16,762 nt of DNA. Source: an uncultured Mediterraneibacter sp. Its GTDB lineage: Bacteria; Bacillota; Clostridia; Lachnospirales; Lachnospiraceae. The notes beneath the pieces were generated by a model. The model saw only the letters and a list, made by a program, of their open reading frames with translations. It was not told the DNA's origin and did no database searches. Shown piece by piece: positions 1-16,762 of this stretch. The translations under genes and the position numbers were made by a program. Location of the stretch: the NCBI RefSeq assembly GCF_934330165.1, contig NZ_CAKRGI010000037.1:1-16762 (forward strand), given 5' to 3'. How positions within the stretch are numbered: position 1 is the first letter of the stretch; each line of letters opens with the position of its first letter.

Positions 1-9
1 ATATTATAT

Positions 10-24
10 CCTGCGTTTTGCAGG
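10..24. repeat. Small perfect hairpin near the left edge
   Basis: A 5-bp perfect inverted repeat (CCTGC at 10-14, GCAGG at 20-24) encloses a 5-nt loop. Neither flank carries a convincing uridine tract (TCGTTT follows on the + strand, ATATAAT on the - strand), so it is at most a weak terminator for something ending off the left edge. Bases 25-90 show no gene and no convincing promoter. Confidence 0.3.
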
Positions 25-90
25 TCGTTTATCCTGGTCAATAACCATCCGGCTTCTTTCTAACGTTTTTAAATTTGTATTGTTGAGTGA

Positions 91-356
91 ATACGCTGTG
101 GAGACAGTGTAACTTCTTATCGAGATGGTCAGCGGAAAGCAGGGTGTTCCTGAGCAGGTGCATTAGCAGGAGCGTTCCGAAGACACTTTGCAGCGTTTGT
201 TAGAGAAAGTAAATCGAGTGCCATTGCACGAAGATTTCCACTTTCGAGTTACAAACGGTCAACGGGCTGAGGTAAAGCGGGCTCTGCACTGCGAAGGAAT
301 ATCCTGCTTTCCGCGTCCGATCCGTCACTAAGAATTTATATGCCTGCTAAGCGTAT
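91..356 (+). ncRNA. Candidate large rod-shaped structured RNA, family not recognised
   Basis: Hand folding gives one nested system with about 78 base pairs in 266 nt. Helices from outside in: 91-97/350-356; 114-119/329-334; 124-128/322-326; a 20-bp continuous helix 132-151/295-314; 154-157/289-292; 159-162/285-288; 170-173/281-284; 186-191/272-277; 194-200/251-257; 205-210/240-245; 211-215/233-237; 218-221/226-229, capped by a CATT loop. The strand is inferred from wobble pairs. G-U pairs at 126/324, 144/302, 146/300 and 190/273 would be A-C mismatches on the other strand. Tandem G-A mismatches flank helices at 152-153/293-294 and 203-204/246-247, as is typical of a sense RNA. I saw no SRP, RNase P, tmRNA, T-box or common riboswitch signature. 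No clear promoter precedes it and no U-tract follows it. A mobile-element fold-back or a 3' UTR structure of the convergent symporter gene is the main alternative. Confidence 0.55.
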
Positions 357-385
357 CACCCCAACAGCTACAAATTTCAGCAACA

Positions 386-1756
386 TCATCCCACAAACTT
401 ACTCCAGTATCCCTGCACGAAGATAAAGAGTACGATCAGTGGCAGAATATAAGACACATAAATTCTTGTCCATTTCGGGAATTTGATTCCTTCTCCTGCA
501 TTTGCCTCTTCACAGAATTTCTTCCATCCCCAGCCATAGCGGCTCGTACAGAATAAAAGGTAAACCAGACTGCCAAGTGGGAGCAGATTATTACTTACAA
601 TAAAATCTTCCAAATCCAGTACATTACTTCCTGCTCCAAGTGGCTGGAATCCGCTCAGTACATTGAAGCCCAAAATGCATGGCAGAGAAAGGATCACAAT
701 AGCGATCAGATTTATCACGACTGCCTTCGCTCTTGAGCAGTTGGTCAGATCCATTGCAAATGCAATAATATTTTCAAAAACTGCAATGATCGTAGATGCT
801 GCCGCAAAAAGCATGCACAGGAAAAATAAGGTTCCCCAGATTCTTCCACCACTCATGGAATTGAAAATATTCGGCAGTGTAATAAAAATCAGACTCGGGC
901 CACTGTCCGGCTGAACTCCAAAGGCAAAGCATGCCGGAAAGATGATCATTCCAGCGATCAGTGCCACGCATGTATCCAGTACTGTCACACAGACTGCCTC
1001 TTCTGTCAGCCTTCTCTTTTTATCAATATAACTTCCAAAAATTGCAATCGCACCGATGCCAAGACTTAATGTAAAGAAAGACTGTCCCATGGCTGCAAAA
1101 ATAACTTCTTTCAGTCCTGATTCTGCTGCCTTTTTAAAGTCTGGCAACAGATAGAATCTGAGTCCTTCTCCTGCACCCGGAAGGGTTGCAGAACGGATTG
1201 CCAGAATCACCATCAGTGCCAGTAAAAGAATCATCATTTTCTTGGTAATCTTTTCTACTCCCTTCTGCAATCCCATGCAGACAATCCCAAAGCAGACTGC
1301 TACAACTACGATCATACAGATTGTCATCAGCCCCGGTTTCTCCATCAGATTTCCGAAGACACCTGCAATCTCATCTGCATTCTTTCCTTCAAACTCACCA
1401 CCTGCCATCTTAAATACATACAGCAGGATCCACCCCCCGATCGTCGTATAAAACATCATCAGGAGATAATTTCCCGCCATGCCAAACCATTTATACCAGT
1501 GCCATTTTGTTCCCAGTGGCTCCAGCCGGTCAAATGACATCGCCACGCTTGCCTGACTTGCACGTCCTACAGCAAATTCCATGACCATGATCGGCAGCCC
1601 CAAAAGCACCAGAAATACCAGATAGATCAATACAAATGCTGCTCCACCGTATTTTCCGGTAATATACGGGAACCGCCAGACATTCCCCAGACCGATGGCA
1701 CAACCGGCTGAGATCAGGATAAATCCCAGCCGTGAGCCAAATTTTTCTCTTTGCAT
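386..1756 (-). CDS. Sodium-dependent amino-acid symporter, NSS (SNF) family
   Basis: This 456-residue polytopic membrane protein is of the neurotransmitter:sodium symporter family (LeuT/MhsT/TnaT type), importing an amino acid with Na+ across the cytoplasmic membrane. The TM1 family signature is intact: GSRLGFILISAGCAIGLGN followed by VWRFPY at residues 7-31, whose unwound segment binds Na+ and substrate in LeuT. A second hallmark is the glycine/serine-rich TM6 region around FFTLSLGIGAIAIFGSY. The length matches bacterial 11-12 TM members (about 450 residues). The ATG at 1756 lies 2 nt after the stop of the TetR-type gene, with its ribosome binding site (GAGGAAAG) inside that gene's last codons, so the two are co-transcribed and probably translationally coupled. 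Substrate cannot be read from sequence; hydrophobic or aromatic amino acids are common in the family. No clear intrinsic terminator follows the stop. Confidence 0.93.
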   Translation of the reverse strand: MQREKFGSRLGFILISAGCAIGLGNVWRFPYITGKYGGAAFVLIYLVFLVLLGLPIMVMEFAVGRASQASVAMSFDRLEPLGTKWHWYKWFGMAGNYLLMMFYTTIGGWILLYVFKMAGGEFEGKNADEIAGVFGNLMEKPGLMTICMIVVVAVCFGIVCMGLQKGVEKITKKMMILLLALMVILAIRSATLPGAGEGLRFYLLPDFKKAAESGLKEVIFAAMGQSFFTLSLGIGAIAIFGSYIDKKRRLTEEAVCVTVLDTCVALIAGMIIFPACFAFGVQPDSGPSLIFITLPNIFNSMSGGRIWGTLFFLCMLFAAASTIIAVFENIIAFAMDLTNCSRAKAVVINLIAIVILSLPCILGFNVLSGFQPLGAGSNVLDLEDFIVSNNLLPLGSLVYLLFCTSRYGWGWKKFCEEANAGEGIKFPKWTRIYVSYILPLIVLFIFVQGYWSKFVG

Positions 1757-1758
1757 TC

Positions 1759-2355
1759 TTAACTTTCCTCTCTTCCTTCTTTCTTGTCATAAAATGCCTT
1801 CACCGAACTTACTACCATCCGGTAAGTCATATCAGCCGCATAATCCGGACTTTTATCCTCTCCGTCCTCAAGCCATGTCTTGACAAGGCCAAGACATCCA
1901 TTCAGGCAATAAGAGTAAAAATAATTCATCTCGCCTGATTTTTCCGGAAACATCTGCAGTAAAACTTCTCTTGAATTTTCCTCCAAAAGATCTTCCATCT
2001 TATGGATAAAACCAATATCTCCATAAGGTCCGATCAAAGCACATCCAATTTCCCGGTTACGATCAAGTACCTGAAAAATATCTTTAATAAAAGAAAATGC
2101 GGAATCATTTTCCCGGTCGATTGGATGATCATGGATCGCACGCTTCATCTCATCCATCATCTCATCTTCAATCTCTCTCAAAAGCGTTGGGATATCCGAA
2201 TAGTGAAGATAAAAAGTAGAACGATTAATATCCACTTCCTCTACCAGTTCTTTCACCGTGATCTCTCCGATACTTTTTTCTTTCATCAGATGTGCCAGAC
2301 CTTTTCTGAGCTGACTTTTCGTCTTTCTCACCCGCCGATCCGTCTTTTTCTGCAT
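1759..2355 (-). CDS. TetR/AcrR-family transcriptional regulator
   Basis: A 198-residue one-component regulator. The N-terminal helix-turn-helix is clear at about residues 30-54 (EITVKELVEEVDINRSTFY then LHYSDI), the recognition-helix pattern of TetR proteins. The all-helical C-terminal half, with a GCLGLVKTWLEDG segment, resembles the ligand-binding domain of DhaS-like members. An in-frame ATG exists upstream at 2400, but I chose 2355 because AAAGGGGGAG lies 7 nt before it and the extra 15 residues are not TetR-like. It is the first gene of an operon with the symporter and is divergent from the YhgE pair. TetR genes commonly regulate such neighbours, and two palindromes (2430-2438, 2467-2482) lie in the shared intergenic region. 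Ligand unknown. Regulation of the YhgE pair is inference. Confidence 0.9.
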   Translation of the reverse strand: MQKKTDRRVRKTKSQLRKGLAHLMKEKSIGEITVKELVEEVDINRSTFYLHYSDIPTLLREIEDEMMDEMKRAIHDHPIDRENDSAFSFIKDIFQVLDRNREIGCALIGPYGDIGFIHKMEDLLEENSREVLLQMFPEKSGEMNYFYSYCLNGCLGLVKTWLEDGEDKSPDYAADMTYRMVVSSVKAFYDKKEGREES

Positions 2356-2429
2356 AAAATCTCCCCCTTTATGTGACCATTTGCACCTCTTTACTCCCAT
2401 TTCCCGCTATCCTTTTCTCTAAGCAGCCC

Positions 2430-2482
2430 TGTCAGACAAATAAATACTGGTCATTTTTCATCATTTTGTCTACTAAGAGACA
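2430..2482. promoter_or_regulatory. Candidate TetR operator region: two TGTC/GACA palindromes
   Basis: Two inverted repeats share a half-site. TGTCAGACA at 2430-2438 is a perfect odd palindrome. TGTCT-N6-AGACA at 2467-2482 is a 16-bp palindrome with 5-bp arms. The outer arms AGACAAA (2434-2440) and TTTGTCT (2465-2471) also pair with each other. The sites lie between the divergent TetR-type gene and YhgE gene, the second about 20 bp upstream of the YhgE -35 box. Size and position suit a TetR dimer, but binding is inferred. Confidence 0.45.
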
Positions 2483-2502
2483 GATAAGTTGTTCATTGAT
2501 GG

Positions 2503-2531
2503 TTGTAAATTAGTTTCTTCATTAATATAAT
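2503..2531 (+). promoter_or_regulatory. Sigma-A-like promoter of the YhgE operon
   Basis: TTGTAA at 2503-2508 (4/6 to the -35 consensus) is followed after exactly 17 nt by TATAAT at 2526-2531 (perfect -10). Transcription would start near 2538, leaving a leader of about 60 nt before the ATG at 2599, with AAAAGGAG 8 nt ahead of it. Confidence 0.7.
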
Positions 2532-2598
2532 ACTTTTTAGCAAGAAAATCAACATTGTATCTATTACTAGAATATTTCTTTTAAAAGGAGTGTTATTT

Positions 2599-5133
2599 AT
2601 GAAAAAAGCAATGCGAATCTTTCGCCGCGATCTGCGGCGGCTCATTCACAGTCCGGCAGCCATGCTGGTCATGGCAGGTGTTGCAATCCTGCCTTCACTC
2701 TATGCCTGGTTCAATATTGCTGCCAATATTGATCCTTATGCAAATACTTCAGCGATTCAGATTGCCGTTGCCAATAATGATCAGAATGCCTCCAGCAATG
2801 ATCTCACGATCAATGCCGGTGATCAGATCATGGAAAATCTGAAAGAAAATGACCAGCTTGGCTGGGTCTTTACTTCTGAAGAGAAAGCAGTTGACGGAGT
2901 CCGTTCGGGAAAATATTATGCAGCTATTGTAATCCCTGAAGACTTCAGCGATTCCCTTCTCAGTGTTCTTTCCGGTACTCTTGAAACACCGGAACTGAAT
3001 TACTATATTAATGAAAAGATAAATGCCATCGCTCCAAAGATCACAGATACCGGAGCAAGTACGATCCAGACCCAGATCAACGATACTTTTTCATCCATTG
3101 CCGCTGAATCTGTATCAGAAGTGTTAAAAGAATCCATTTTGGATCTGTCCGGAACTGTAAATTCTACTAATTCTGAGATTATCTCGCTTCTGAAAAAAGC
3201 AGATAAGAACTTAAATGAATACGAAACCCTTTTAACTGAATTTACAGAAAAGACTTCCCAGTCCCATGATCTGATCTCAGATGCAAAAGGTGCTTCTGAT
3301 TCTCTTGGAAATGCAGCTGTTTCTGGGGCATCTGCCCTTGAAAATGCACAGGATGCACTGAAGATGAGCCGGCAGGCAGCAGGAGATTTCTCCTCCTCAC
3401 TTTCCAAATCCATCTCCGACGGAGAACAGATTCTGAACAGTGCGAACAGTTCTGTCTCTTCGGGTCTGACTTCTTTGGAAGGAAGTGCCGGAAAGATCAA
3501 CCAGTCTCTCCAACAGGCTCTGGACTCTGCCGGAAACGTAACAGCTCTGAATGCATCCCTTCTGGAAAAAATGCAGGAAATTGCTGCCTCCACACCAGTT
3601 GTCAGTGAACAGCTTTCTGCTGCTATTGCAAAGTTACAGACACAGAATCAGGAAAACCAGACTCTGCTCAACAGTTTAAGTACTGCAAATACAAGTGTTA
3701 AAAATGCTTTGGATACAACCTCTCAGACCCGGCAGGATATTTCCTCGCTCACGCAGCAGAGTATCGACGGACTGCATTCTTTCAGAACAACACTGGACGA
3801 AAATCTGCTCCCACAGCTCAATGCAACGCTGGATACATTTTCCTCGCTCACTGGAGAACTGACCGGAATCCTGAACGGCGTTCCGGCAACTTCCGAGCAG
3901 CTTAAGGGAATCCTGACGCAGCTTGATTCTGGTCTGACCGATACAGCCAACGCACTGAACGGTACAAAAGATGCCCTTTCCACCGTTTCGGACCGGCTTG
4001 GAACTGTGCAGACGGATCTGAATGCCATTACCAGTTCGGCTACTTTTCAGACACTCCTTTCGCTGGAAGGAATGAATGCTGATAAGATTTCCGAATTTAT
4101 GTCCTCCCCGGTGAAGATTGAAACTGAAACTTTTTATTCTGTAAAAAATTATGGTTCATCCATGACTCCTTTTTACACAAACCTTGCGATCTGGGTTGGC
4201 GGAATCGTCCTGATCGCCATTTTAAAAATGGAAGTTGACCACGATGAGACCATGCGTTCCTATGGTTCTGTCTCACTTTATTTCGGACGCTGGCTGCTAT
4301 TCGTCACAGTAGGTATGATACAGGGCTTTATTGTCTGCCTTGGAGATGTACTTCTTCCGGGAATCCAGTGCGTACATCCGGCTCAGTTTATTCTGACCGG
4401 TGTGATCTGTTCCTTTGTATACGTGAATATTATCTACGCACTTTCGCTTACTTTTAAACATATCGGGAAAGCACTGTGCGTCATTCTCGTTATTTTACAG
4501 ATTCCGGGCTCTTCCGGTACTTATCCGGTTGAAATGACACCTGTATTTTTCCAGAAGCTCCATCCACTCCTTCCATTTACTTACGGAGTCGGAGCTATGA
4601 GAGAATGTATCGCAGGATTTTACGGAACAACCTTCCGAAAAGATCTTATGATCCTGCTGCTCGCCTATATTCCGCTCTCTTTGCTGATCGGACTTGGACT
4701 TCGCCCACTTCTTGCCGGACTGAATCACCTCTTTGACAAGAAACTGGCTGAGACAGAATTTATGATGTGCGAACCTCATGAAATTTCCGTCAGCCGCAGC
4801 ACGCAGCTTGCTCTCCTCCTGAAAGCCTCTCTTTCACAGGAAGAGCTGAAACTGACAACCGCTGCCAAAGCACAGGCTTTTGAAAAGAACTACAGAAAAA
4901 TGGTACGCTATGGATTCCTTGCGATCGCACTGATCCCTCTGATTTTCCTGATTCTGATGTTCAGCCTGGAATCAAAAATTATCTTCCTTGTACTCTGGAT
5001 CATTTCGATCATTGCTATTGCATTGTTCTTGATCATTGTTGAATTTATTCACTCGAAACTGGAAGAACAGCAGCAGCTTGCCGGCATGACTTTTGATGAA
5101 ATGCTGGAGACCTTCCGCAGAAAGGAGAATTAA
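2599..5133 (+). CDS. YhgE/Pip family membrane protein with C-terminal extension (first tandem copy)
   Basis: An 844-residue protein of the YhgE/Pip family (phage infection protein; T7SS EsaA is a distant relative). One N-terminal membrane segment (about 18-42) runs into the signature LPSLYAWFNIAANIDPY. A large extracytoplasmic domain then runs to about residue 520, much of it Ser/Thr/Asn/Ala/Leu-rich heptad-like helix. An ABC-2-type membrane domain of about five segments follows (about 522-705), including LAIWVGGIVLIAI and LLPFTYGVGAMRECIAGFYG. Unlike the second copy it continues about 135 residues, with a charged stretch and two further strong membrane segments (about 770-815), ending in a hydrophilic tail. 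I start at ATG 2599, 8 nt after AAAAGGAG; a GTG at 2590 overlaps that site and is unlikely. The next gene begins 3 nt after the stop. Molecular role unknown; Pip in Lactococcus is a phage receptor, and envelope or export functions are proposed for relatives. Confidence 0.9.
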   Translation: MKKAMRIFRRDLRRLIHSPAAMLVMAGVAILPSLYAWFNIAANIDPYANTSAIQIAVANNDQNASSNDLTINAGDQIMENLKENDQLGWVFTSEEKAVDGVRSGKYYAAIVIPEDFSDSLLSVLSGTLETPELNYYINEKINAIAPKITDTGASTIQTQINDTFSSIAAESVSEVLKESILDLSGTVNSTNSEIISLLKKADKNLNEYETLLTEFTEKTSQSHDLISDAKGASDSLGNAAVSGASALENAQDALKMSRQAAGDFSSSLSKSISDGEQILNSANSSVSSGLTSLEGSAGKINQSLQQALDSAGNVTALNASLLEKMQEIAASTPVVSEQLSAAIAKLQTQNQENQTLLNSLSTANTSVKNALDTTSQTRQDISSLTQQSIDGLHSFRTTLDENLLPQLNATLDTFSSLTGELTGILNGVPATSEQLKGILTQLDSGLTDTANALNGTKDALSTVSDRLGTVQTDLNAITSSATFQTLLSLEGMNADKISEFMSSPVKIETETFYSVKNYGSSMTPFYTNLAIWVGGIVLIAILKMEVDHDETMRSYGSVSLYFGRWLLFVTVGMIQGFIVCLGDVLLPGIQCVHPAQFILTGVICSFVYVNIIYALSLTFKHIGKALCVILVILQIPGSSGTYPVEMTPVFFQKLHPLLPFTYGVGAMRECIAGFYGTTFRKDLMILLLAYIPLSLLIGLGLRPLLAGLNHLFDKKLAETEFMMCEPHEISVSRSTQLALLLKASLSQEELKLTTAAKAQAFEKNYRKMVRYGFLAIALIPLIFLILMFSLESKIIFLVLWIISIIAIALFLIIVEFIHSKLEEQQQLAGMTFDEMLETFRRKEN

Positions 5134-5136
5134 CCG

Positions 5137-7323
5137 ATGAAAAATATCATTCAGATTTTTAAAAATGATCTCCTCAGAATTCATAAGAATGTCATCGCAA
5201 TGATTGTCATCATGGGAATTACCGTGATCCCGACACTCTACGCATGGTTTAATATTGCTGCAAGCTGGGATCCTTATGGAAATACCGGTAATCTGAAGGT
5301 TGCCGTAGCCAGCAACGATGAAGGGTATAAAGGGGAACTTCTTCCGGTCAATTTGAACCTGGGAGACGATGTCATCAGTGAACTGCAGGGAAATAAGCAG
5401 CTAAACTGGGTCTTCACAGATGCAAAAGATGCGAAAAAAGGGGTACAGTCCGGTAAGTACTACGCTGCCATTGTCATCCCTGAAGATTTCAGTAAAGATA
5501 TGATGAGTCTTTTTACTTCAGATGTCGTACATCCTGATATCACCTACTACATCAATGAAAAAGAAAATGCCATCGCCCCGAAAGTCACACAGAAAGGTGC
5601 CAGCTCTGTCCAACACCAGGTCAATGAAACGTTCATTACCACCGTATCCAAGACAGCACTTGAGGCACTTCAGTTCGTAAATGATGTTTCAGCCAAAACC
5701 GGAGACGAGTCCCTGACTGAACATCTCGCTGCCTCTCTGTCACAGATTTCCGCCGATCTTGGAAATATTTCCGGTACGGTGAAAGCCTTTTCTGATATGA
5801 CCGATGCCGGAGCATTAATGCTGGATACGACTACCTCTTTTCTTGAACAATCGGGAAAAGGAACAAAAAGCAGTGTCAATGCACTGAATCAGGCAGGAAA
5901 TGGAATTGATTCACTGACTTCTGCCCTGACAGGAACAACTTCTGATATCAATACCGCACTGAAGCAGAATGCTGATTTTTATTCTTCTGTATCTGCCGCC
6001 ATTGACAAGGCACTCGACTCTTATTCAACTGACGCTGCCGCCTGCTCCAATGCCATTCAGGCAGTCAGCGGCCGTGTGCAGAATCTGATTTCCGGTTATC
6101 AGGAATTATCTGATTCCCTGACCGCCATTGCCAATGCACACCCGGATCAGACAGCTCTGGTTCAGGCGATCAATGGACTGAACGTGCAGATCCGGCAGGC
6201 GATCGACCAGCAGACACAGATCAAAAAGAAACTGGATGAAATTGCTGCTGCCCTTCCTTCAGCTACTGCCGATGCCTCCACTTTAAAGAAAGAACTGGAT
6301 GATCTGCTTGCCCGGGGAACCGCTTCTGTCAACTCGGTAAAGACCTCTTATGAGCAGAATGTGAAAAGCAGCCTGGATGGTCTCGCCACGAATCTTGACT
6401 CCACCGGTTCTTCCCTTGTGAACCTCTTAGGGCAGGTAGACAACAGTATAAAGCAGATCAGTTCTGTCACCGGATCTGCTTCCACAGATCTTTCCACTGT
6501 GAAAGAGGCTCTTGAACAGACCGTCAGTCTGCTGAATGAATCTTCTGAAAAATTGCAGAAAGTCTCCACCACACTTTCCACAGATGGCAGTGATGGTGTG
6601 CAGATGCTTGAAAATATTCTTGCCGAAGATCCACAGACGATCGGAGCTTTCCTTGCAGCACCGGTAAGCCTGAATGAGACAAAAATCTATCCAATTGAAA
6701 ATTACGGAACTGCCATGGCTCCTTTTTACTCCACACTGGCGATCTGGGTAGGAGCTGTCGTTATGGCAGCCATGCTCAAAGTCAATGTCTCTGAATCTGT
6801 AGTTAAGAAGCTTTCCGGAATGAAACCATATCAGCTCTACTTTGGACGTCTGCTCCTCTTTGTATGTATCGGACTGTTACAGAGCGGACTGATCTGTCTG
6901 GGAGACCTGTATTTCCTTGGTATTCAGTGCGAACATCCTTTCCTGTTCCTAGTGACGGGCTGGTTTACAAGTTTTGTTTATGTCAATCTGATCTATGCAC
7001 TGACTGTCTCCTTTGGCGATATTGGTAAAGCGGTTGCCGTTGTCCTTATGGTCATGCAGGTAGCCGGAAGTGGTGGCACATTCCCGATCCAGTGTGCTCC
7101 GAAATTTTTCCGGGTTGTATACCCACTGCTTCCATTTACCCACAGCATGAATGCCATGCGTGAGTGTGTTGCAGGCTTCTACGGTATGAACTATATCAAA
7201 GAACTGGGATATTTAGGAATCTTCCTGATCCTTTCACTTTTACTCGGACTGCTGCTTCGCAAACCGGTTGTAAAATTAAATGATGCATTTACTGAAAAGC
7301 TGGAAAGTACACATCTGATTTAG
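5137..7323 (+). CDS. YhgE/Pip family membrane protein (second tandem copy)
   Basis: A 728-residue paralogue of the preceding protein with the same plan: an N-terminal membrane segment (about 16-38) with IPTLYAWFNIAASWDPYGN, a conserved extracytoplasmic head (SGKYYAAIVIPEDFS, YYINEKENAIAPKVTQKGAS), a long Ser/Ala/Thr/Leu-rich helical stalk, and a C-terminal ABC-2-like membrane domain (about 528-715) with LAIWVGAVVMAAML and LLPFTHSMNAMRECVAGFYG. It ends soon after the last membrane helix and lacks the two-helix extension of the first copy. The ATG at 5137 is preceded by AAAGGAG (5121-5127) in the last codons of gene 1, spacing 9, so the pair is one operon and probably translationally coupled. 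Conserved head motifs suggest similar partners, with divergent stalks setting length or specificity. A hetero-oligomer is plausible but inferred. Confidence 0.9.
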   Translation: MKNIIQIFKNDLLRIHKNVIAMIVIMGITVIPTLYAWFNIAASWDPYGNTGNLKVAVASNDEGYKGELLPVNLNLGDDVISELQGNKQLNWVFTDAKDAKKGVQSGKYYAAIVIPEDFSKDMMSLFTSDVVHPDITYYINEKENAIAPKVTQKGASSVQHQVNETFITTVSKTALEALQFVNDVSAKTGDESLTEHLAASLSQISADLGNISGTVKAFSDMTDAGALMLDTTTSFLEQSGKGTKSSVNALNQAGNGIDSLTSALTGTTSDINTALKQNADFYSSVSAAIDKALDSYSTDAAACSNAIQAVSGRVQNLISGYQELSDSLTAIANAHPDQTALVQAINGLNVQIRQAIDQQTQIKKKLDEIAAALPSATADASTLKKELDDLLARGTASVNSVKTSYEQNVKSSLDGLATNLDSTGSSLVNLLGQVDNSIKQISSVTGSASTDLSTVKEALEQTVSLLNESSEKLQKVSTTLSTDGSDGVQMLENILAEDPQTIGAFLAAPVSLNETKIYPIENYGTAMAPFYSTLAIWVGAVVMAAMLKVNVSESVVKKLSGMKPYQLYFGRLLLFVCIGLLQSGLICLGDLYFLGIQCEHPFLFLVTGWFTSFVYVNLIYALTVSFGDIGKAVAVVLMVMQVAGSGGTFPIQCAPKFFRVVYPLLPFTHSMNAMRECVAGFYGMNYIKELGYLGIFLILSLLLGLLLRKPVVKLNDAFTEKLESTHLI

Positions 7324-7390
7324 GATCATCCCGGTTGTCCTGTAACTGAAAAGATCCATTGAATTTTTTTACTGCATGCCTGGCAGCTAA

Positions 7391-7430
7391 AAAGGTGGAC
7401 AGAACTCAAACTCCAGTTCTGCCCACCTTT
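7391..7430. terminator. Convergent (bidirectional) intrinsic terminator
   Basis: Arms 7391-7406 and 7415-7430 form a 16-bp stem with an 8-nt loop between the + strand YhgE operon and the - strand GNAT gene. Read on the - strand the single non-Watson-Crick position is a G-U wobble and CCTTTTT follows. On the + strand it is an A-C mismatch with only a short T4. It is therefore a better terminator for the pdxR-GH2-GNAT unit but probably serves both. Confidence 0.85.
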
Positions 7431-7447
7431 TATCTATGCCTTTTTCC

Positions 7448-8005
7448 TTACGCTTTTTTAAAATTTTTCTTCACCATCAACGCCAGTGTCCGTCCAAAAT
7501 ATTTCCTGATCAATGCCAGGAATTCTTCATAGGATACCTTTCCTCCCAGATACAGCATCTCATATTCTACCCCATACTCTCTTGTACTGTATCCTGCCTC
7601 CTGAAATCCATTTTTCAGATAAAACTCCTTTCTTTTTTTCCGCTCTTCATAATTGTCACAGTTCTCATCTACCACCTCTATATTCAGAATGATCCTGCGT
7701 GCCGAAAACCGGCGGCGTAATGCCTGCAGGATTCTGCTTCCATACCCCTGACCTCTTTCATCCGGCTCGATTGCAAAATAATACAGATAGACCACATCCT
7801 CAAAATAAACCAGATGGATAAATCCTACTAAAATATCATCATCATATACCTGCATCAGATCTGCGGTTGATGTGCGGCCTGCTTTTCTCAAAATCCAGAA
7901 GGGAATCTGTTCTTCTTTTGGAAATGCCTCATCATATAAGCTTTTAATTTCATTCAGTCTCTTTTTATCATTTCTTGCATTTACAAAGCGTAACATAATT
8001 TTCAT
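7448..8005 (-). CDS. GNAT-family N-acetyltransferase
   Basis: A 185-residue soluble protein with the GCN5-related N-acetyltransferase fold. Motif A, which binds the acetyl-CoA pyrophosphate, is visible at about residues 72-92: a YLYYFAIEPDE strand followed by RGQGYGSRIL, matching Q/R-x-x-G-x-G/A. A motif B-like segment (RKEFYLKNGFQEAGY, near 125-140) includes the usual FYxxxGF. About 35 residues (KVSYEEFLALIRKYFG onward) follow the core. The start is uncertain: ATG 8005 sits 3-4 nt after AAAGGA and a second ATG at 7996 sits 12 nt after it. It lies 68 nt downstream of the GH2 gene with no terminator between, and just before the 7391-7430 terminator, so it is likely the last gene of the pdxR unit. 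Acceptor substrate unknown. Confidence 0.85.
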   Translation of the reverse strand: MKIMLRFVNARNDKKRLNEIKSLYDEAFPKEEQIPFWILRKAGRTSTADLMQVYDDDILVGFIHLVYFEDVVYLYYFAIEPDERGQGYGSRILQALRRRFSARRIILNIEVVDENCDNYEERKKRKEFYLKNGFQEAGYSTREYGVEYEMLYLGGKVSYEEFLALIRKYFGRTLALMVKKNFKKA

Positions 8006-8073
8006 TTTTCCTTTCTACTACTGATTCCTGTTGTCTATCCACCCCTGCATGATTCTCATTTTTTCTCACTCTT

Positions 8074-9885
8074 TCAATCAATCTTTCTGATCTTTCGATC
8101 ATATGTATAAATTCCGTTGACTTCTTCTTCAATATCTGACCACTGTGTATAGACACTGGCACACAAACCTTCAGCCATTAATTTTTTCACCTGTTCCATT
8201 CTTTTTCTGTATCGACGGTTCAGTGCTTTTTTACTCTTGCAGATCCCATATCCATAAAGTTTTCCACAGGCACTATGTCCTTCGATCCGGTAACTGTATC
8301 CTCCAAATTCCGAAAGAACTGCCGCCCTCTCCTTTTCCGGGTGGATCTTCAGCTTAAAGAAATAATTATGAAGACTGCAAAAATCTCCTCCCCCCTGATC
8401 GAACCACCCACTGGCCTGATCGATCAGCCGGTCAGGGTCTTCTTTTCTGAGAATCGCGGTCATATCTTCCGTCTGAAACTGCCCCCAGCCCTCATTAAAG
8501 ATGACCCAGGCGGCAATACTTGGATGCCCTTTTAACCGATGTACCGTCTCCCTCATTTCTTTCACAAATTCCAGGCGGCTTTCCTTTTCTTTCCTTGCCA
8601 GCAGCCCCGGATAAATATCTCTCATCCGGATCTTCCACCACGACATCAGCGTTGCCGCATACGTCACAAACCAGTGCTTATATTTTCCCCCGCCATTGAC
8701 CATATCCTGCCATACAACCAGCCCCAGCCTGTCGCAATGATAATACCATCTCTGCGGTTCTATTTTCAAATGCTTCCGTACCATATTAAATCCGCATTTC
8801 TTCATCTGCTCCAGATCAAAGATCATAGCTTCATCTGAAGGTGCGGTATACAGTCCATCCGGCCAGTAGCCCTGATCCAGTACTCCATTCTGATACTGTA
8901 TCTGATGGTTCAGGCAGATCCGCATGGATCCCTGTCCATCTTTTTCCAGTGTGAATTTTCTCATGGCAAAATAACCTGCTATCCTGTCTTTCTCCATTTC
9001 AACAGTAAAATCATAAAGATATGGTGTATCACACGTCCACAACTGCACATCCTGAACCGGAATCTCCAGCCATTCATTCGTCTTTCCATATATTTCGCTC
9101 CCGATCATGCCCTCCACTGGATCATGCGGTACATTTTTCTCCAGTTCTTTGTGGATCTTTGGCTTTTGCAGCACGATCTTTACAGCATATTCTGCATCAG
9201 ACCGGACTATGATACGGACTTTTTTCTCATCCGGTTCAGGGATTGTCTCCACTTCTTTTATATACTTTTCCGGCACTCTTTCCAGCCAGACAGTCTGCCA
9301 GATTCCACTTTGAGCCGTATAGAACATACCGCCTCTTTCCAGCTTCTGCTTTCCCCTGGAATGATACGATGTATCACTCAGATCTTTCACAGCCACAACC
9401 AGTTCATTTTCTCCTGCCTGCACTGCCTCTGTAATCTCAAATTCAAAAGGCAGATACCCACCTGTATGCCTTCCGATCCGCTGTCCGTTCACCCATACAA
9501 CGCACGCCTGATCCACAGCTCCAAAGTGAAGAAGCAGTCTTTCCTCTGTCAGGTCTGCTCCCATCCCGGATTCCAGATCTTCCTCTAAAAAAAATCCACC
9601 TGCTCTTTTTATCTTATGCCCGTCAACAGAAAATGTCCGGTGATACCACAGATATTCATCCGGCATTAACTGACGGTTCACGCCTGATAATGCTGCCTCC
9701 GGCGAAAAAGGAACCAGGATCTTCCCGTCAAATTCTTTCGGACATACAAATTCCTGTGTAAATGCATAATCCCAGTACCCATTGAGATTCAGATAACTGT
9801 CCCTTATCATCAGCGGTCTTGGATATTCGTCAAGTACATGCTCCCTGTCCAGCGTCTCTCCCCATACAGTAAAAAGCTGCTCCAT
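8074..9885 (-). CDS. Glycoside hydrolase family 2 enzyme, compact cytoplasmic form
   Basis: A 603-residue retaining glycosidase of family GH2 (beta-galactosidase / beta-glucuronidase / beta-mannosidase clan). Order: jelly-roll sugar-binding domain (about 25-205, with the conserved VWVNGQRIGRHTGGYLPFEF run), immunoglobulin-like domain (about 206-310), then TIM barrel (about 320-600). The predicted acid/base is Glu465 in FNEGWGQF and the nucleophile Glu526 in LSEFGGYSY. The fold-typical VRKHLKIEPQRWYYHCDRLG segment is at 369-388, and VYTQWSDIEEEVNGIYTYD closes the barrel. No signal peptide or membrane helix, so intracellular oligosaccharide or glycoside hydrolysis is expected. It is much shorter than LacZ, near beta-glucuronidase length; substrate cannot be assigned. 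The ATG at 9885 has a strong AAGGAGGAG site lying in the 15-nt gap after the PdxR-type gene, indicating one operon. Confidence 0.9.
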   Translation of the reverse strand: MEQLFTVWGETLDREHVLDEYPRPLMIRDSYLNLNGYWDYAFTQEFVCPKEFDGKILVPFSPEAALSGVNRQLMPDEYLWYHRTFSVDGHKIKRAGGFFLEEDLESGMGADLTEERLLLHFGAVDQACVVWVNGQRIGRHTGGYLPFEFEITEAVQAGENELVVAVKDLSDTSYHSRGKQKLERGGMFYTAQSGIWQTVWLERVPEKYIKEVETIPEPDEKKVRIIVRSDAEYAVKIVLQKPKIHKELEKNVPHDPVEGMIGSEIYGKTNEWLEIPVQDVQLWTCDTPYLYDFTVEMEKDRIAGYFAMRKFTLEKDGQGSMRICLNHQIQYQNGVLDQGYWPDGLYTAPSDEAMIFDLEQMKKCGFNMVRKHLKIEPQRWYYHCDRLGLVVWQDMVNGGGKYKHWFVTYAATLMSWWKIRMRDIYPGLLARKEKESRLEFVKEMRETVHRLKGHPSIAAWVIFNEGWGQFQTEDMTAILRKEDPDRLIDQASGWFDQGGGDFCSLHNYFFKLKIHPEKERAAVLSEFGGYSYRIEGHSACGKLYGYGICKSKKALNRRYRKRMEQVKKLMAEGLCASVYTQWSDIEEEVNGIYTYDRKIRKID

Positions 9886-9900
9886 CCTAAACTCCTCCTT

Positions 9901-11361
9901 CTATGGATGAATGATCTTATAAAGCGTCTGTGCCACATATTCCAACCGGTCGCAGTCCACAAAGGAATAATTCATGACATACGTATTTTCATATCTGCTG
10001 TCTTTCTGTTCCGCATTATAAAAAGAAGACAACGTTGCAAGCCGGATTCCTTTCGCCTTTGTCTTTAAAAGAATTTCCTGCTCGCTCACGGAAGTATTAA
10101 CATGCATCAGGAAATGCACTCCTGAATCCTCTTCACTGATCGTAATATATTTTCCCAAAGGCTCTCTGAGAAATGTACTTAAGATCAGATCCCGCTTATG
10201 CTGATAATAGTTTCTCAGCCTGTTGATATGCTTCTCAAATGCACCTGCATTCATAAATGCTGCCAGCGTATACTGTTCAAAATTAGACACGGTACAGGAA
10301 TAAAATGAAAGTTCTCTGTAATATTTCTCTGCCAGTGCCTCTGGAAGCACCATATAACTGATTCGGACAGTAGAACAAAGTGTCTTCGCAAATGTATTAA
10401 TATAAATCACCTTGCCTGATACATCGATGCTCTGCAGGGACGGAATCGGTTTCCCCGCAAGTCTTAACTCACTGTCATAATCATCTTCTATGATATATCT
10501 CTCCTTCTCTCTCGTAACCCATCCAAGCAGTTCATACCTTTTACTGATCGGCATCACCATTCCGGTCGGAAAATGATGAGATGGGGAAATATGCATGATA
10601 TCTACTTTTTTTTCTTCTAGTTTCTTTGCAGAAGTTCCCTCTTCATCCAGATCAATATACTCATACTTTACACCCATACTGTGGTAGATTTTTGCAATCT
10701 TTGGATAGCCCGGATTCTCCACTCCATAACAGACATTTCTCCCAAGAAGCTGGATCAGAATGCTGTACAGATACTCTGTTCCTGCTCCGATAATGATCTG
10801 TTCCGGTCTTACATACATGGCACAAAATTCTTTAAGATAACCGGAAATACTTTTCCGCAGCTCCATCACACCTCCACAGGGGGGATTGATCATCATTTCC
10901 TCCTGATAATCATTCATGACTGCCCGCATGGTCTTATTCCAGATGGAAAAAGGAAATGCCGCATGCTCCGTCTGATTGCTTGTAAAATCTGCAATAAATG
11001 CATTGTCCCCTCCGGTCAGAAGTACTTTGTCCCCGGCTTTTGCAGTCCGTGAATCTTTTCCCTGCTCTTCTGCCTTATACGGTTCTGACGTATACTCCGT
11101 CTGATGTACCGGAATCCCACTCAGATCCGACACATAATACCCGCTTTTAGGAATAGAATAAATATATCCTTCTGCAAGAAGCTGACCGTAGGCATTTTCC
11201 ACCGTGATCACGCTTATAGCCAGATTTTTTGCAAGTGCCCGCTTGGAAGGCAGCTTCTCACCACTTAAGATTTTCCCCTGTATTATGTCATTTTTGATAC
11301 ATTTATACAGAAATTCATACAGGGAATCTGACCCTATATTTTCAAAATTATATGTCAACAT
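9901..11361 (-). CDS. pdxR: MocR/PdxR-type regulator (GntR-like wHTH fused to aminotransferase fold)
   Basis: A 486-residue MocR-family regulator, probably PdxR, which senses pyridoxal phosphate and controls pdxST. The N-terminal winged helix (about 8-80) shows the GntR pattern GEKLPSKRALAKNLAISVIT then VENAYGQLLAEGYI. After a linker (about 82-120) comes a fold-type I aminotransferase-like domain, with SPSHHFPTGMVMP (259-271), IEDDYDSELR (291-300) and the PLP Schiff-base lysine Lys326 in NTFAKTLCSTVRISYMVLP. I start at ATG 11361. Upstream extension is open only to a TTG at 11433, adds non-homologous residues and would overlap the -10 box. The ribosome site for 11361 is weak (GGAG, 12 nt away). 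It is divergent from pdxS, the usual arrangement for a B6-dependent activator, and heads a unit with the GH2 and GNAT genes. Confidence 0.88.
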   Translation of the reverse strand: MLTYNFENIGSDSLYEFLYKCIKNDIIQGKILSGEKLPSKRALAKNLAISVITVENAYGQLLAEGYIYSIPKSGYYVSDLSGIPVHQTEYTSEPYKAEEQGKDSRTAKAGDKVLLTGGDNAFIADFTSNQTEHAAFPFSIWNKTMRAVMNDYQEEMMINPPCGGVMELRKSISGYLKEFCAMYVRPEQIIIGAGTEYLYSILIQLLGRNVCYGVENPGYPKIAKIYHSMGVKYEYIDLDEEGTSAKKLEEKKVDIMHISPSHHFPTGMVMPISKRYELLGWVTREKERYIIEDDYDSELRLAGKPIPSLQSIDVSGKVIYINTFAKTLCSTVRISYMVLPEALAEKYYRELSFYSCTVSNFEQYTLAAFMNAGAFEKHINRLRNYYQHKRDLILSTFLREPLGKYITISEEDSGVHFLMHVNTSVSEQEILLKTKAKGIRLATLSSFYNAEQKDSRYENTYVMNYSFVDCDRLEYVAQTLYKIIHP

Positions 11362-11432
11362 CCGTTCTATTTTCTCCGTTCTGACCTTTTTGATTATATC
11401 TAAATTGAATATTTCTCTATAGTCACAATGCA

Positions 11433-11461
11433 ATTATACTAATACCTGTCGAAATTGTAAA
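11433..11461 (-). promoter_or_regulatory. Promoter of the pdxR unit
   Basis: On the - strand TTTACA (complement of 11456-11461; 5/6 to consensus) is followed after 17 nt by a perfect TATAAT (complement of 11433-11438). It points at pdxR and lies back to back with the weaker pdxS promoter. A TATAAT about 40 nt further downstream has no good -35 partner. Confidence 0.7.
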
Positions 11462-11479
11462 GAATTTCCACTATATTCT
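11449..11479 (+). promoter_or_regulatory. Probable activator-dependent promoter of pdxST with overlapping inverted repeat
   Basis: TCGAAA at 11449-11454 (4/6) is spaced 17 nt from TATATT at 11472-11477 (5/6), a weak promoter that fits genes needing an activator. An inverted repeat, AGAAT (11461-11465) and ATTCT (11475-11479) separated by 9 nt, overlaps the -10. It could bind PdxR, though MocR proteins often use direct repeats instead. The leader would be about 25 nt. Confidence 0.5.
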
Positions 11480-11509
11480 AAAATACGATTTTAAAGGGAG
11501 GATTTACCA

Positions 11510-12388
11510 ATGAATACAAACGAAAGATATAAACTGAACAAAAATCTGGCTCAGATGTTAAAGGGTGGTGTCATCATGGATGTAACGACACCGGAGCAGG
11601 CAAAAATTGCAGAAGCTGCAGGTGCATGTGCAGTTATGGCTCTTGAACGGATTCCGGCAGATATCCGTGCAGCAGGTGGTGTTTCCCGTATGAGTGACCC
11701 GAAAATGATCCGTGGAATTCAGGAGGCAGTGTCCATTCCGGTTATGGCAAAATGCAGGATCGGACATTTCGCAGAAGCACAGGTGCTTCAGGCCATTGAA
11801 ATTGATTATATCGATGAGAGTGAAGTTCTTTCCCCTGCTGATGATGTATACCATATCAACAAGCGTGACTTTGACGTTCCTTTCGTCTGCGGTGCAAAAG
11901 ACCTCGGAGAAGCTTTAAGAAGGATCAATGAAGGAGCTTCTATGATCCGTACAAAAGGAGAACCGGGAACCGGTGATATCGTCCAGGCTGTCCGTCACAT
12001 GAGAATGATGAACAGTGAAATTGCCCGGATCAAAGGAATGCGTGAAGATGAACTCTTTGAGGCGGCAAAGCAGCTCCAGATTCCATTTGACCTTGTTCTC
12101 TCTGTCCATGAAAACGGAAAACTTCCGGTCGTAAACTTCGCAGCCGGTGGTGTCGCAACTCCTGCAGATGCAGCCCTGATGATGCAGCTGGGAGCAGAAG
12201 GTGTCTTCGTTGGCTCCGGTATCTTCAAGTCCGGTAATCCGGCAAAACGTGCCGCTGCCATTGTTCAGGCTGTAACAAATTATACTGATGCAAAACTGAT
12301 CGCTGAACTTTCCGCAGATCTCGGAGAAGCCATGGTCGGTATCAATGAGCAGGAAATCGCACTTCTTATGGCTGAAAGGGGTAAATAA
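11510..12388 (+). CDS. pdxS: Pyridoxal 5'-phosphate synthase, lyase subunit PdxS
   Basis: A 292-residue PdxS (YaaD/SNZ type) that condenses ribose 5-phosphate, glyceraldehyde 3-phosphate and PdxT-supplied ammonia into PLP. It is a cytoplasmic (beta/alpha)8 barrel that forms a dodecamer in known homologues. Length and residue numbering match the Bacillus enzyme: Asp24 in [12 protein letters not shown], catalytic Lys81 in VMAKCRIGH, and Lys149 in [11 protein letters not shown]. The substrate phosphate loop [12 protein letters not shown] and the [10 protein letters not shown] segment are intact. GGGAGG at 11496-11501 lies 8 nt before the ATG. pdxT follows 4 nt after the stop, so the two are co-transcribed. 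No damage seen. Confidence 0.98.
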
Positions 12389-12392
12389 GACT

Positions 12393-12974
12393 ATGACGAT
12401 TGCAGTTCTTGCCCTGCAGGGGGCATTCATAGAACATGAGCATATGCTCCAGAAGCTCGGTGCAGATACCATCGAACTCAGAAAAGCTGATGATCTGCAA
12501 AAAGACTTCAACGGTCTCATTCTTCCCGGTGGTGAAAGCACCGTCCAGGGAAAACTTCTGCATGATCTTGATATGTTTGAACCTTTAAAAGAAAAAATCT
12601 GCTCCGGTATGCCGGTTCTCGCAACCTGTGCAGGAATGATCCTGCTCGCTTCGGATATTGCCGGTCAGGAGGAATCCTACTTCGGGACTCTTCCCATGAC
12701 AGTCAGACGAAATGCCTATGGCCGTCAGCTCGGCAGTTTCCACACTACTGCCAACGCCAGCGGAATCGGTGAAATCCCTATGACTTTCATCCGTGCACCT
12801 TATGTGGAAAGCGTTCATGCTGATGCAGCCGGAGAAAAACCGGAAGTTTTAAGTATCATACAGGATCGGATCGTCGGAGTAAAATATCACAATCAGATGG
12901 CATTTGCATTTCATCCGGAACTGGATCAGGATACAAAGATCCATGAAGCATTTCTTGGAATGATCAATAAATAA
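12393..12974 (+). CDS. pdxT: Pyridoxal 5'-phosphate synthase, glutaminase subunit PdxT
   Basis: A 193-residue class I glutamine amidotransferase that hydrolyses glutamine and channels ammonia to PdxS. The triad is visible: nucleophile Cys79 in PVLATCAGMILLA, with His174 and Glu176 in FAFHPELDQD. The oxyanion/substrate loop LPGGEST is at 44-50, and the N-terminal MTIAVLALQGAF strand is typical. The frame is open upstream inside pdxS, but I start at ATG 12393, 4 nt after the pdxS stop, because homology begins there; AAAGGGG lies about 11 nt ahead. It ends about 65 nt before the terminator at 13041-13090. Confidence 0.97.
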   Translation: MTIAVLALQGAFIEHEHMLQKLGADTIELRKADDLQKDFNGLILPGGESTVQGKLLHDLDMFEPLKEKICSGMPVLATCAGMILLASDIAGQEESYFGTLPMTVRRNAYGRQLGSFHTTANASGIGEIPMTFIRAPYVESVHADAAGEKPEVLSIIQDRIVGVKYHNQMAFAFHPELDQDTKIHEAFLGMINK

Positions 12975-13000
12975 TTTTGTGAAATGAATCCACTGTAAAC

Positions 13001-13032
13001 CAGTTCACTTATTATATAAATCAGTTCACTTA
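13001..13032. repeat. Direct repeat of 11 bp, two copies
   Basis: CAGTTCACTTA occurs at 13001-13011 and again at 13022-13032 (21-bp period). A shorter relative, TCACTTA, lies at 13062-13068 in the terminator loop. The copies sit between pdxT and its terminator, beside the lipoprotein breakpoint. They may be a recombination scar or chance A/T-rich similarity. Confidence 0.5.
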
Positions 13033-13040
13033 CTGACACA

Positions 13041-13090
13041 AAAGACGGGATCAGAACCGTATCACTTACGTTCCAAATCCCGTCTTTTTT
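13041..13090 (+). terminator. Intrinsic terminator of pdxST
   Basis: A perfect 11-bp stem (AAAGACGGGAT 13041-13051, ATCCCGTCTTT 13077-13087) runs into a T6 tract (13085-13090). Inside the loop, 54-56/71-73 and 58-61/67-70 (add 13000) form a further stem, making one long hairpin. It terminates pdxST on the + strand. Read from the - strand the same hairpin is followed by TTTTG, so it may also stop transcripts from the lipoprotein remnant. Confidence 0.9.
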
Positions 13091-13560
13091 CCTTCTATAC
13101 TGTTCAAACAATGTCTTGTTGGCAATGATCGTCTGTGGTATACCGCAGATAGGAAGCCACTGAATCTCATTTTTTGAATTTTTATAATATTGCAATGCAT
13201 AGGAGTAATATCTGGAAACCACATCATAAGAAGCAAAATCCATTAGATATGGCTCCAGATCCTGTGCATCTTTTCCAGAAAATCGCCGTACGGTTATGAT
13301 ATCCGGCAGTTCACCATGTTCCTCAAAATAGCTATATAAAGCGGTATCATTGGTACCGGTAATAAACTCAATATCCTGATCTGGAAACTGCTCATGGATA
13401 TAGGGTACAATATTTTTCATTAAACGATTTTCCCACAGATACACGGTAAGGTGATCGTCATTTTTAGATACTGCTTTTTGAGATTGTCCACAGCCAGACA
13501 AAACAGTAATTGCTAAAAGTGCACCTGACAGTAATGCTGTCAGACATTGTTTTGCCTTTT

Positions 13561-13581
13561 TCATCCTCGTATTTTTCTCAT
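13561..13581 (-). other. Six-residue leader frame overlapping the lipoprotein start (ATGA)
   Basis: A mini frame, MRKIRG, starts at ATG 13581 behind an AGGAAAG ribosome site. Its TGA stop overlaps the lipoprotein ATG as ATGA. The lipoprotein's own upstream GAGG abuts the ATG with no spacing, so translation may depend on coupling from this leader. Its small size makes chance possible. Confidence 0.3.
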
Positions 13582-13583
13582 TC

Positions 13584-13619
13584 TTTCCTGATAAAATCAT
13601 TAATTCAATAATCAGGAAA
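13584..13619 (-). promoter_or_regulatory. Intercistronic stem-loop covering the downstream ribosome site
   Basis: Arms TTTCCTGAT (13584-13592) and ATCAGGAAA (13611-13619) form a perfect 9-bp stem with an 18-nt loop, starting 4 nt after the kinase stop on the - strand. No T tract follows on either strand, so it is not a classic terminator. In the - strand transcript the 3' arm contains the AGGAAAG that would serve the leader frame, so the hairpin could reduce translation or stabilise a processed 3' end. Confidence 0.5.
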
Positions 13620-13622
13620 CAA

Positions 13623-16600: not shown

Positions 16601-16762
16601 TTTTCAATGAGCCTTTTGTCTTTTCCATGAAAGTATCAAATGTATGTCCTGTACTATGTAACAGCAGATTACTCACAGACAAAATAGACAGGTTTTGGTC
16701 ATAATATCCTGTCATTATACCTACCCCGCCATTATTTTCCAGTGTTTTCTGTACGGCCTGTG
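13623..16762 (-). CDS. Multi-PAS hybrid sensor histidine kinase with two receiver domains (5' end outside window)
   Basis: At least 1045 codons, with no membrane segment or signal peptide in the visible part. Numbered from the Met at 16715: PAS-like domains at about 1-100, 107-225, 240-360 and 375-495, linked by coiled-coil pieces (DITEAKVESA; DVTQEKKAEI); HisKA with phospho-accepting His530 in FLSNMSHDIRTPMNAIVG; HATPase_c with N box NLMSNAIKYT, G1 EDNGIGM, F box FDPFSRAD and G2 QGTGLGMA (about 640-750); REC1 with Asp820 in ILDWKMPDMDG and Lys871; REC2 with Asp962 in FMDIQMPVMNG and Lys1015. No Hpt domain is present, so a separate phosphotransfer protein may be needed. The ATG at 16715 is not accepted as the start: the frame stays open to the edge and reads VQKTLENNGGVGI straight into the first PAS, as expected for a gene continuing upstream. 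It is followed by the truncated binding-protein gene. Signal and output unknown. Confidence 0.93.
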   Translation of the reverse strand, partial: QAVQKTLENNGGVGIMTGYYDQNLSILSVSNLLLHSTGHTFDTFMEKTKGSLKNFFYDEEDILDRNRFLQLRGAGEAQILTADGTVNNVRLYKEDATDEAGRQIWVMSVQVNWDHVNLTLLNEAICSGFWYFDCDENSEIVNANWSHEFRKMLGYHDTLDFPNKLESWSDLLHPQDKERVMAQLQAAIADKTNQIKYQVEYRMRMKDNQYQWFRASAEVIRRLDGSASRIAGNFINIDAEKKETMQAQKSAAFHRAFTKADLCEYYVNLEANTFDTFKVEPSLMTVFEQSHTWDELIRHFVDSYVVETDKKAVSAFYNRSYIAEKLKGLETELALECRIILNGEERWVRNVIIRGEIADSEYAMIFLRDITEAKVESARHLQMAADNASMEQLIQSIVHLVDRFVVCDLENDRYEFYNLNGQMIYKPLGFYHDFQMQVLEKYKTLEPLEAMDILTAPENIRKNLKSENDIYKFEYCSLNEKTYKIASYIPLEWENGKLIKVLLASMDVTQEKKAEIESRQALKEAYQSAENANRAKTEFLSNMSHDIRTPMNAIVGLTAIAGANIESQDRVIECLSKITESSRHLLGLINEVLDMARIESGKMTLAQEDFNLPDLVDNLITLTKPVLDEHKHNFDIRINHIEHEDVCGDSLRIQQVFVNLMSNAIKYTPDGGNIIFSIEEKPNGFSELGCYEFTIEDNGIGMSSEFQKIMFDPFSRADDHRTTKVQGTGLGMAITRNIVNLMNGNIKVESTLHKGTKIIVTIYLELQEKEKEQDRNLMNLPVLVVDDDKTCCESTVATLKEIGITGEWVLSGREAVERCYARHELKNDYFAVILDWKMPDMDGIETARQIRKRIGKETTIIVLTSYEFSEIEEEAKAAGVDAFIAKPLFRSRLTATLRQFTSGRKEKTARNYLEELSEADYTGKRILLVEDNELNREIAVEILQMTGAEVETAENGKIAVEKVEASPKGLYDLIFMDIQMPVMNGYEATAAIRSLPGKQGKLPIVAMTANAFAEDVQLAKNTGMNGHIAKPLDMNKLNDVLESWL

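Follow-up and report, generated by a model that had tools for sequence, protein, structure and literature searches.

A large paired and structured repeat, probably mobile, at the ends of convergent genes in Mediterraneibacter

The window analysed here is a stretch of 16,762 nucleotides from an uncultured Mediterraneibacter sp. (Lachnospiraceae; contig NZ_CAKRGI010000037.1, positions 1 to 16,762). Its left end holds part of a structured, interspersed element, followed by a gene that reads toward it. Complete copies of the element in the nearest genome compared (G001) consist of two related units, here called A and B. The features are as follows, each with the evidence for it:

1 to 69, + strand: part of the spacer, forming one inner arm of the palindrome at its centre (aligned with 30 copies from G001, where complete B-spacer-A elements occur)
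35 to 53, + strand: block TGGTCAATAACCATCCGGC within the spacer (alignment with 30 G001 copies)
71 to 377, + strand: A half, a single long hairpin unit with imperfect pairing, closed by helix 71–79/369–377 (fold, helices, right edge at 377)
132 to 314, + strand: main stem 132–151/295–314 with all its interior (letter check, fold)
169 to 280, + strand: core, from GGAGCGTTCCGAA to GAGGTAAAGCGG, common to A, B and other-species units (alignment of 61 units, pair counts)
218 to 229, + strand: innermost hairpin, GTGC-CATT-GCAC (letter check; helix 7, with 98.4% of cells paired)
370 to 377, + strand: outer end of the element, ACAAATTT (aligned copies; 61 terminal-pattern matches in G001, none in the reversed control)
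386 to 1756, − strand: convergent neighbour gene of the sodium:neurotransmitter symporter family, stop codon at 386–388 (ORF; PF00209 at 9.9e-57)

A preliminary description, made from the letters of the window, had proposed a lone structured RNA bounded by positions 91 and 356. Checked letter by letter, every helix that it named is present. Helices 91–97/350–356 (7 of 7 pairs) and 114–119/329–334 (6 of 6) are Watson-Crick throughout, 124–128/322–326 has four Watson-Crick pairs and one G-U pair, and the 20-bp helix 132–151/295–314 has 18 Watson-Crick and two G-U pairs around a perfect 12-bp core at 132–143/303–314. All three wobble pairs in these outer helices read as G-U on the + strand, as the description had stated for its four wobble positions. 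A perfect inverted repeat of at least 12 bp arose in one of 400 mononucleotide shuffles of positions 1–385, in agreement with its estimate of ∼0.005. Folded as RNA, the same positions reach −138.6 kcal/mol on the + strand (z −6.26) and −123.5 kcal/mol on the − strand (z −5.55), and none of 100 shuffles equalled either value. The description had overlooked the outermost helix, a perfect 9-bp pairing of 71–79 with 369–377. The hairpin therefore extends over ∼71–377, with a sharp outer edge and a conserved terminal sequence.

The hairpin is also not alone. G001 is a single contig of 2.73 Mb that shares 24% of sampled 31-letter words with the window. In this genome, 34 places (A-type) align with most of window positions 30–377 at 87–93% identity, a range that gives no sign of a recent burst. 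Another 26 places match at 73–82% in the opposite orientation, mostly near one of the 34. A covariance model finds 66 units in G001, which we split by score into 32 of type B and 34 of type A. This copy number rules out a lone structured RNA: the hairpin is instead half of a multi-copy interspersed element. Most G001 units are arranged as head-to-head pairs, B-spacer-A, and a complete element runs in the order AAATTTGT..., B (reversed), spacer, A, ...ACAAATTT, with a length of ∼760 bp and units of ∼300 nt. Among 25 elements measured in G001, 16 are 716–786 bp long, seven are 876–961 bp, and two are 615 and 664 bp. The right edge at window position 377 is common to the aligned copies, and the flanks beyond it are unrelated. 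From the complete G001 elements and this common edge, it follows that the window carries the A half together with part of the spacer; the B half would sit to the left of base 1, beyond the window. In structure, the element joins two diverged versions of a single long structured unit, placed head to head on either side of a palindromic spacer. Inverted terminal repeats, as in MITEs, are present in the G001 elements, and an inverted doublet of palindromic units, as in REPINs, is present in G001 and in other species. The flanks of the G001 copies, and the G001 site L014, show no clear target-site duplication; at L014, a duplicated AAATTT could be concealed within the fixed ends.

Four fecal scaffolds labelled ‘Bacteriophage sp.’ (MT838801, MT839318, MT839411 and MT838007; L060–L063) each start inside the element. 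They are 99.3–99.8% identical to G001 chromosomal loci over 1.2–1.7 kb and are probably bacterial contigs broken at the repeat, which in this way misleads assembly and labelling. A phage origin was rejected on this chromosomal match and on the exact pattern, which had no match in viral contigs. Plasmid sequences likewise gave no match to the element.

At the symporter gene the stop codon lies 8 nt from the element end, and the corresponding place in G001 is also occupied, by an element 8 nt past the stop of the same gene. The half adjacent to the gene is A in the window and B in G001 (window 378–385 compared with L068 1279–1286), and the eight bases between element and stop differ at three positions. 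Inversion, replacement or independent insertion could explain the opposite halves.

To assess the fold across copies we cut out 179 distinct units, all with a fuzzy form of two core motifs, and thinned them by 8-mer similarity and a minimum length to 61, among which relatedness persists. In the resulting alignment, 36 rows stem from the motif-pattern search and 25 from the window and similarity-found loci. The constancy of the core motifs is partly by construction, because the motif ends doubled as the search pattern; near-constant loop strands, e.g. GTTA and GTTACA, lie outside the search motifs. RNAalifold predicts 47 pairs, 41 of them with at least one double compensatory change. Paired cells amount to 95.3%, compared with 73.1% in shuffles, and the covariation score is 0.615, compared with 0.213 in shuffles, which do not preserve relatedness, and at most 0.148 in slid controls. 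The window itself forms 38 of the 47 consensus pairs, and each of the four pairs in hairpin 218–229 is formed by at least 58 of the 61 units. The double changes in 41 pairs are incompatible with a degraded coding sequence and bear out the earlier proposal of a selected fold: judged from the alignment, the fold is strongly conserved and under selection, as RNA or single-stranded DNA (ssDNA).

The alignment also carries information on the strand. In the 35 pairs predicted from both strands there are 81 G-T cells and 25 A-C cells; omitting columns rich in either leaves 45 and 21 (binomial p 0.004, ignoring relatedness). This excess favours the + strand of the window, whether as RNA or as ssDNA, and so sides with the strand preference of the preliminary description. 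As to the molecule itself, we consider RNA only slightly more probable than ssDNA as the one under selection. The description had named a transposon end as one of the outcomes that would speak against its selected RNA. The element does resemble a mobile repeat, and the fold is conserved nonetheless; both ideas thus hold in part.

The description had also recognised no RNA class, and a scan with the Rfam 15 covariance models concurs: the element in the window is unmatched at E up to 5, and no family matched it in 18 plus 5 loci of relatives. The only family to reach gathering level in the scanned relatives is Clostridiales-1 (RF01699), at positions apart from the element. An RNA-like covarying fold, loop strands that hardly vary although they lie outside the search motifs (e.g. 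GTTA and GTTACA) and a + strand bias are what a family of trans-acting cellular regulatory RNAs might show, if transcribed outward from the spacer and kept in many copies for its own function. Promoter-like sites, however, are at chance level in the regions scanned (L064 450–1400 and window 1–500), and copy numbers vary from 0 to at least 50 between related species, so that we consider such a family highly improbable.

The position of the element relative to genes is as distinctive as its fold. In a survey of G001, 42 of 60 possible element ends were recognised, and 31 of these face an ORF of at least 100 codons. Of these 31 scorable flanking ORFs, 28 end between −10 and +12 bp relative to the element. 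Twelve of the 28 end at −2, so that the element contains the final two letters of their stop codon. Ten elements are flanked on either side by ORFs of 90 codons or more; by our reading, eight of them have both ends in the −10 to +12 range, the exceptions being L010 and L030. The pattern extends across species. After removal of duplicates (same 160 nt after the core) and of flanks below 450 nt, and with ORFs called mechanically, a convergent ORF end is reached within 400 nt in 166 of 188 outer flanks, and in 110 of the 166 that end lies 85–135 nt from the core end, i.e. at the element end. The other 22 flanks face no convergent end, and 18 of them have a start within 400 nt. Sampling 400 kb of G001 shows elements at 4 of 33 convergent junctions, at 2 of 233 co-directional ones and at none of 30 divergent ones (convergent 4/33 compared with 2/263 for other junctions; Fisher p 0.0017). 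Among the element-free convergent gaps of this sample, 6 of 29 are 15 bp or less, overlaps counted. With so few tight gaps, random insertion into convergent gaps would seldom put both ends at stop codons. Random intergenic insertion is contradicted by the end positions in G001, across species and in the 400-kb sample.

Sites that lack the element in relatives bear on how it is gained. At L014 the joined G001 flanks match unbroken in three genomes (G024, G023 and G035). In these, distances of 6, 6 and 8 bp separate the facing stops, and the proteins end in much the same way; the covariance-model survey of the genus found no unit in any of the three. Element-free relatives have gaps of 39 and 72 bp at L003 and, in 12 genomes, of 23–156 bp at L006, and several of these gaps contain terminator-like hairpins by eye. 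A tight gap as target is thus shown at one of three sites only. At L003 and L006, either the gap in G001 was tighter to begin with or the insertion cost it some sequence.

The DegV gene beside L017 has matches in 57 of 58 genomes. In the 30 loci looked at, its product either stops at one common residue or is a single codon longer, and elements of the repeat family follow its stop in G001, G005 and G067. A second family of long, structured hairpins, of ∼350 nt, starts directly after the DegV stop in other species (L165, L171, L177 and L186). An alignment of four of its sequences, of which two are almost the same, yields 66 pairs, and 28 of these show double changes.

Terminator-like sites are few and not far above chance: they number 3 in L064 450–1400, with 1.0 expected, and 2 in window 1–500, with 0.5 expected, and some spacers contain a 10-pair terminator-like hairpin. 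It is conceivable, though we hold it only tentatively, that the element terminates transcription in both directions. That spacer hairpin, and the occupation of spots where relatives often carry terminator-like hairpins (by eye), could also suit a family of immobile bidirectional terminators, repeated through recombination without transposition. A terminator, however, does not need conserved internal loops, and the fixed terminal sequence together with the newly filled gap of 6–8 bp indicates integration; we therefore regard an immobile family as very unlikely.

The element is centred on one group of bacteria. The exact pattern occurs in 84 stretches of a named genome collection; the 80 that were listed are mostly Mediterraneibacter, the others being Ruminococcus, Lachnoclostridium, Dorea, Lachnospiraceae bacterium and Clostridium sp. 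Marseille-P3244, with names as in the record titles. Within the genus, the covariance model matches 44 of 58 genomes, with one to at least 50 matches each. These counts are lower bounds because the candidates scored per genome were limited (up to 50, compared with 73 in the fuller survey of the family). Across the order only G001 matched among 295 genomes, a weak negative because nine candidates were scored per genome. The fuller search of 40 family genomes found the element in G001 and in one of 39 other genera (G381), which has 11 divergent matches including one head-to-head pair. In G381, the paired units of L240 fold as one giant palindrome (−257 kcal/mol for 520 nt). Head-to-head pairs are seen in other species too, and the outer ends differ between species. 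In a tree of units whose bootstrap is not settled, the paired halves from several species (e.g., L032, L049, L086, L116 and L128) fall in different parts, one of them in a clade of 30 rows; in other species (L033, L053 and L146) both lie within that clade. The unlike halves therefore look old, though they are not universal.

We conclude that window positions 1–377, the A half with part of the spacer, probably belong to a non-autonomous mobile repeat that is dispersed in genomes of the Mediterraneibacter group, is spread by an enzyme encoded elsewhere and forms a shared 3′ end at convergent junctions. In the mechanism that we propose, this enzyme would recognise the folded unit, as RNA or ssDNA, and integrate it at the junction of convergent genes. 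The inserted element would then become the shared 3′ end of both genes and would probably terminate or insulate the transcripts of both. A bolder form of the proposal, which we think rather unlikely, is a mobile structured RNA element of a new class, with two unlike, large, RNA-like halves kept as a pair and a conserved core read by the enzyme, put precisely where genes converge and travelling as a prefabricated shared 3′ end and insulator.

None of the candidates examined, namely Y1 transposases, Rpn nucleases, IS630 and the genes in long spacers, was identified as the mobilising enzyme. One alternative is a true REPIN, in which a Y1 tyrosine transposase (RAYT) moves an inverted doublet by way of ssDNA; the conserved fold would then be that of one DNA strand. 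REPs are described, in the portions available of PMC3116915 and PMC3733652, as inverted doublets that prefer 3′ and convergent positions and sometimes serve as stop codons. Moreover, the fold of the element is strand-biased, and 49 of the 58 genus genomes contain a Y1_Tnp match. However, for all its 66 units, G001 yields just one Y1 match; it lies in a 159-aa frame at a distance of ∼0.8 kb from a partial unit. Y1 genes also occur where no unit was found (e.g., in G062, G063 and G024), and by inspection their presence does not follow unit number among the 58 genomes, so RAYT/Y1 was set aside as mobiliser. Considering also the ∼300-nt units with conserved internal loops, we judge a REPIN in the strict sense improbable.

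Mobilisation by an Rpn nuclease (PF04754, YhgA-like; treated in excerpts of PMC5350276 and PMC10327210) was weighed because six G001 loci with the gene (L064, L066, L067, L069, L070 and L074) each adjoin a unit, five of them with an identical 5′ junction to the outer end of B. Outside G001, no Rpn match lay near units in the other-species loci tested. Matches to the family were found in 36 of the 58 genus genomes but not in step with unit number, and G037 (30 units) and G027 (16 units) gave none. We consider this explanation very doubtful and rejected Rpn as a general mobiliser. Some copies of the gene in the G001 loci are interrupted.

A non-exhaustive search for an autonomous parent transposon, covering the IS630 inserts and the genes in long spacers, found none. 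The IS630 copies were rejected as parent, being inserts within the spacers of L068 and L071. Both inserts carry a Clostridiales-1 RNA that follows the IS630-type transposase ORF immediately on its 3′ side and shares its strand (L068 1690–1857 and L071 1499–1666, both − strand), which suggests that this RNA can travel with an IS630 element. A third copy (L074 521–688, + strand) has no IS630-type transposase ORF among those listed. An autonomous partner gene inside long-spacer pairs was likewise rejected, since gene contents differ among four loci including L233 (G064), L235 (G080) and L236 (G008). By eye, the genes between the units of these three are a RelB/RelE-like pair, a CPBP-like gene and a 140-aa ORF.

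Bacterial interspersed repeats are mostly short hairpins. What is unusual in this element is its size, its strong covariation, its often two distinct halves and its position at the stops of facing genes. Should it prove to be mobile and to define where dozens of genes in common gut bacteria have their 3′ ends, it would link changes of the genome with the ends of transcripts and with the structure of RNA or ssDNA, all in one testable system. We found no description of it in open-licence papers, which is weak evidence of absence, and compared it with known repeats as described in the available parts of PMC3116915, PMC3733652, PMC2267715 and PMC3049150.

Several known systems share features with the element. 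Like the large Firmicutes RNAs of Rfam (raiA, 6S, SRP and others), it has a large covarying fold; unlike them, it lacks an Rfam match. As in MITEs, it is non-coding, present in many copies and bounded by inverted terminal sequences, but it differs in that no autonomous parent and no clear target-site duplication were found and in that its interior is a conserved, covarying fold. Among the repeats of Streptococcus pneumoniae, BOX, RUP and SPRITE are likewise structured, interspersed and enriched between convergent genes, and BOX often encodes a stop codon without clear truncation. RUP, however, is ∼107 bp long and BOX is modular, and a head-to-head pair of unlike large units does not appear in what the available parts of PMC3049150 describe. 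With the REPs and REPINs of Proteobacteria the element shares the inverted doublet around a spacer, the intergenic placement at convergent or co-directional genes, ends that sometimes give a stop codon, and strand-biased G-T pairs (PMC3116915 and PMC3733652, in the portions available). REP units are 20–40 bp long, in doublets 71 or 110 bp apart (same portions). The element, in contrast, has units of ∼300 nt in a whole of ∼760 bp, conserved internal loops and no linked RAYT that we could find, and it does not fit the definition of a REP as a 20–40 bp unit with a GTAG or CGTC tag. Its placement works as in REPs, BOX, RUP and SPRITE, and the element is best read as a REPIN- or BOX-like structured interspersed repeat that is unusually large, paired and endowed with a conserved, RNA-like core.
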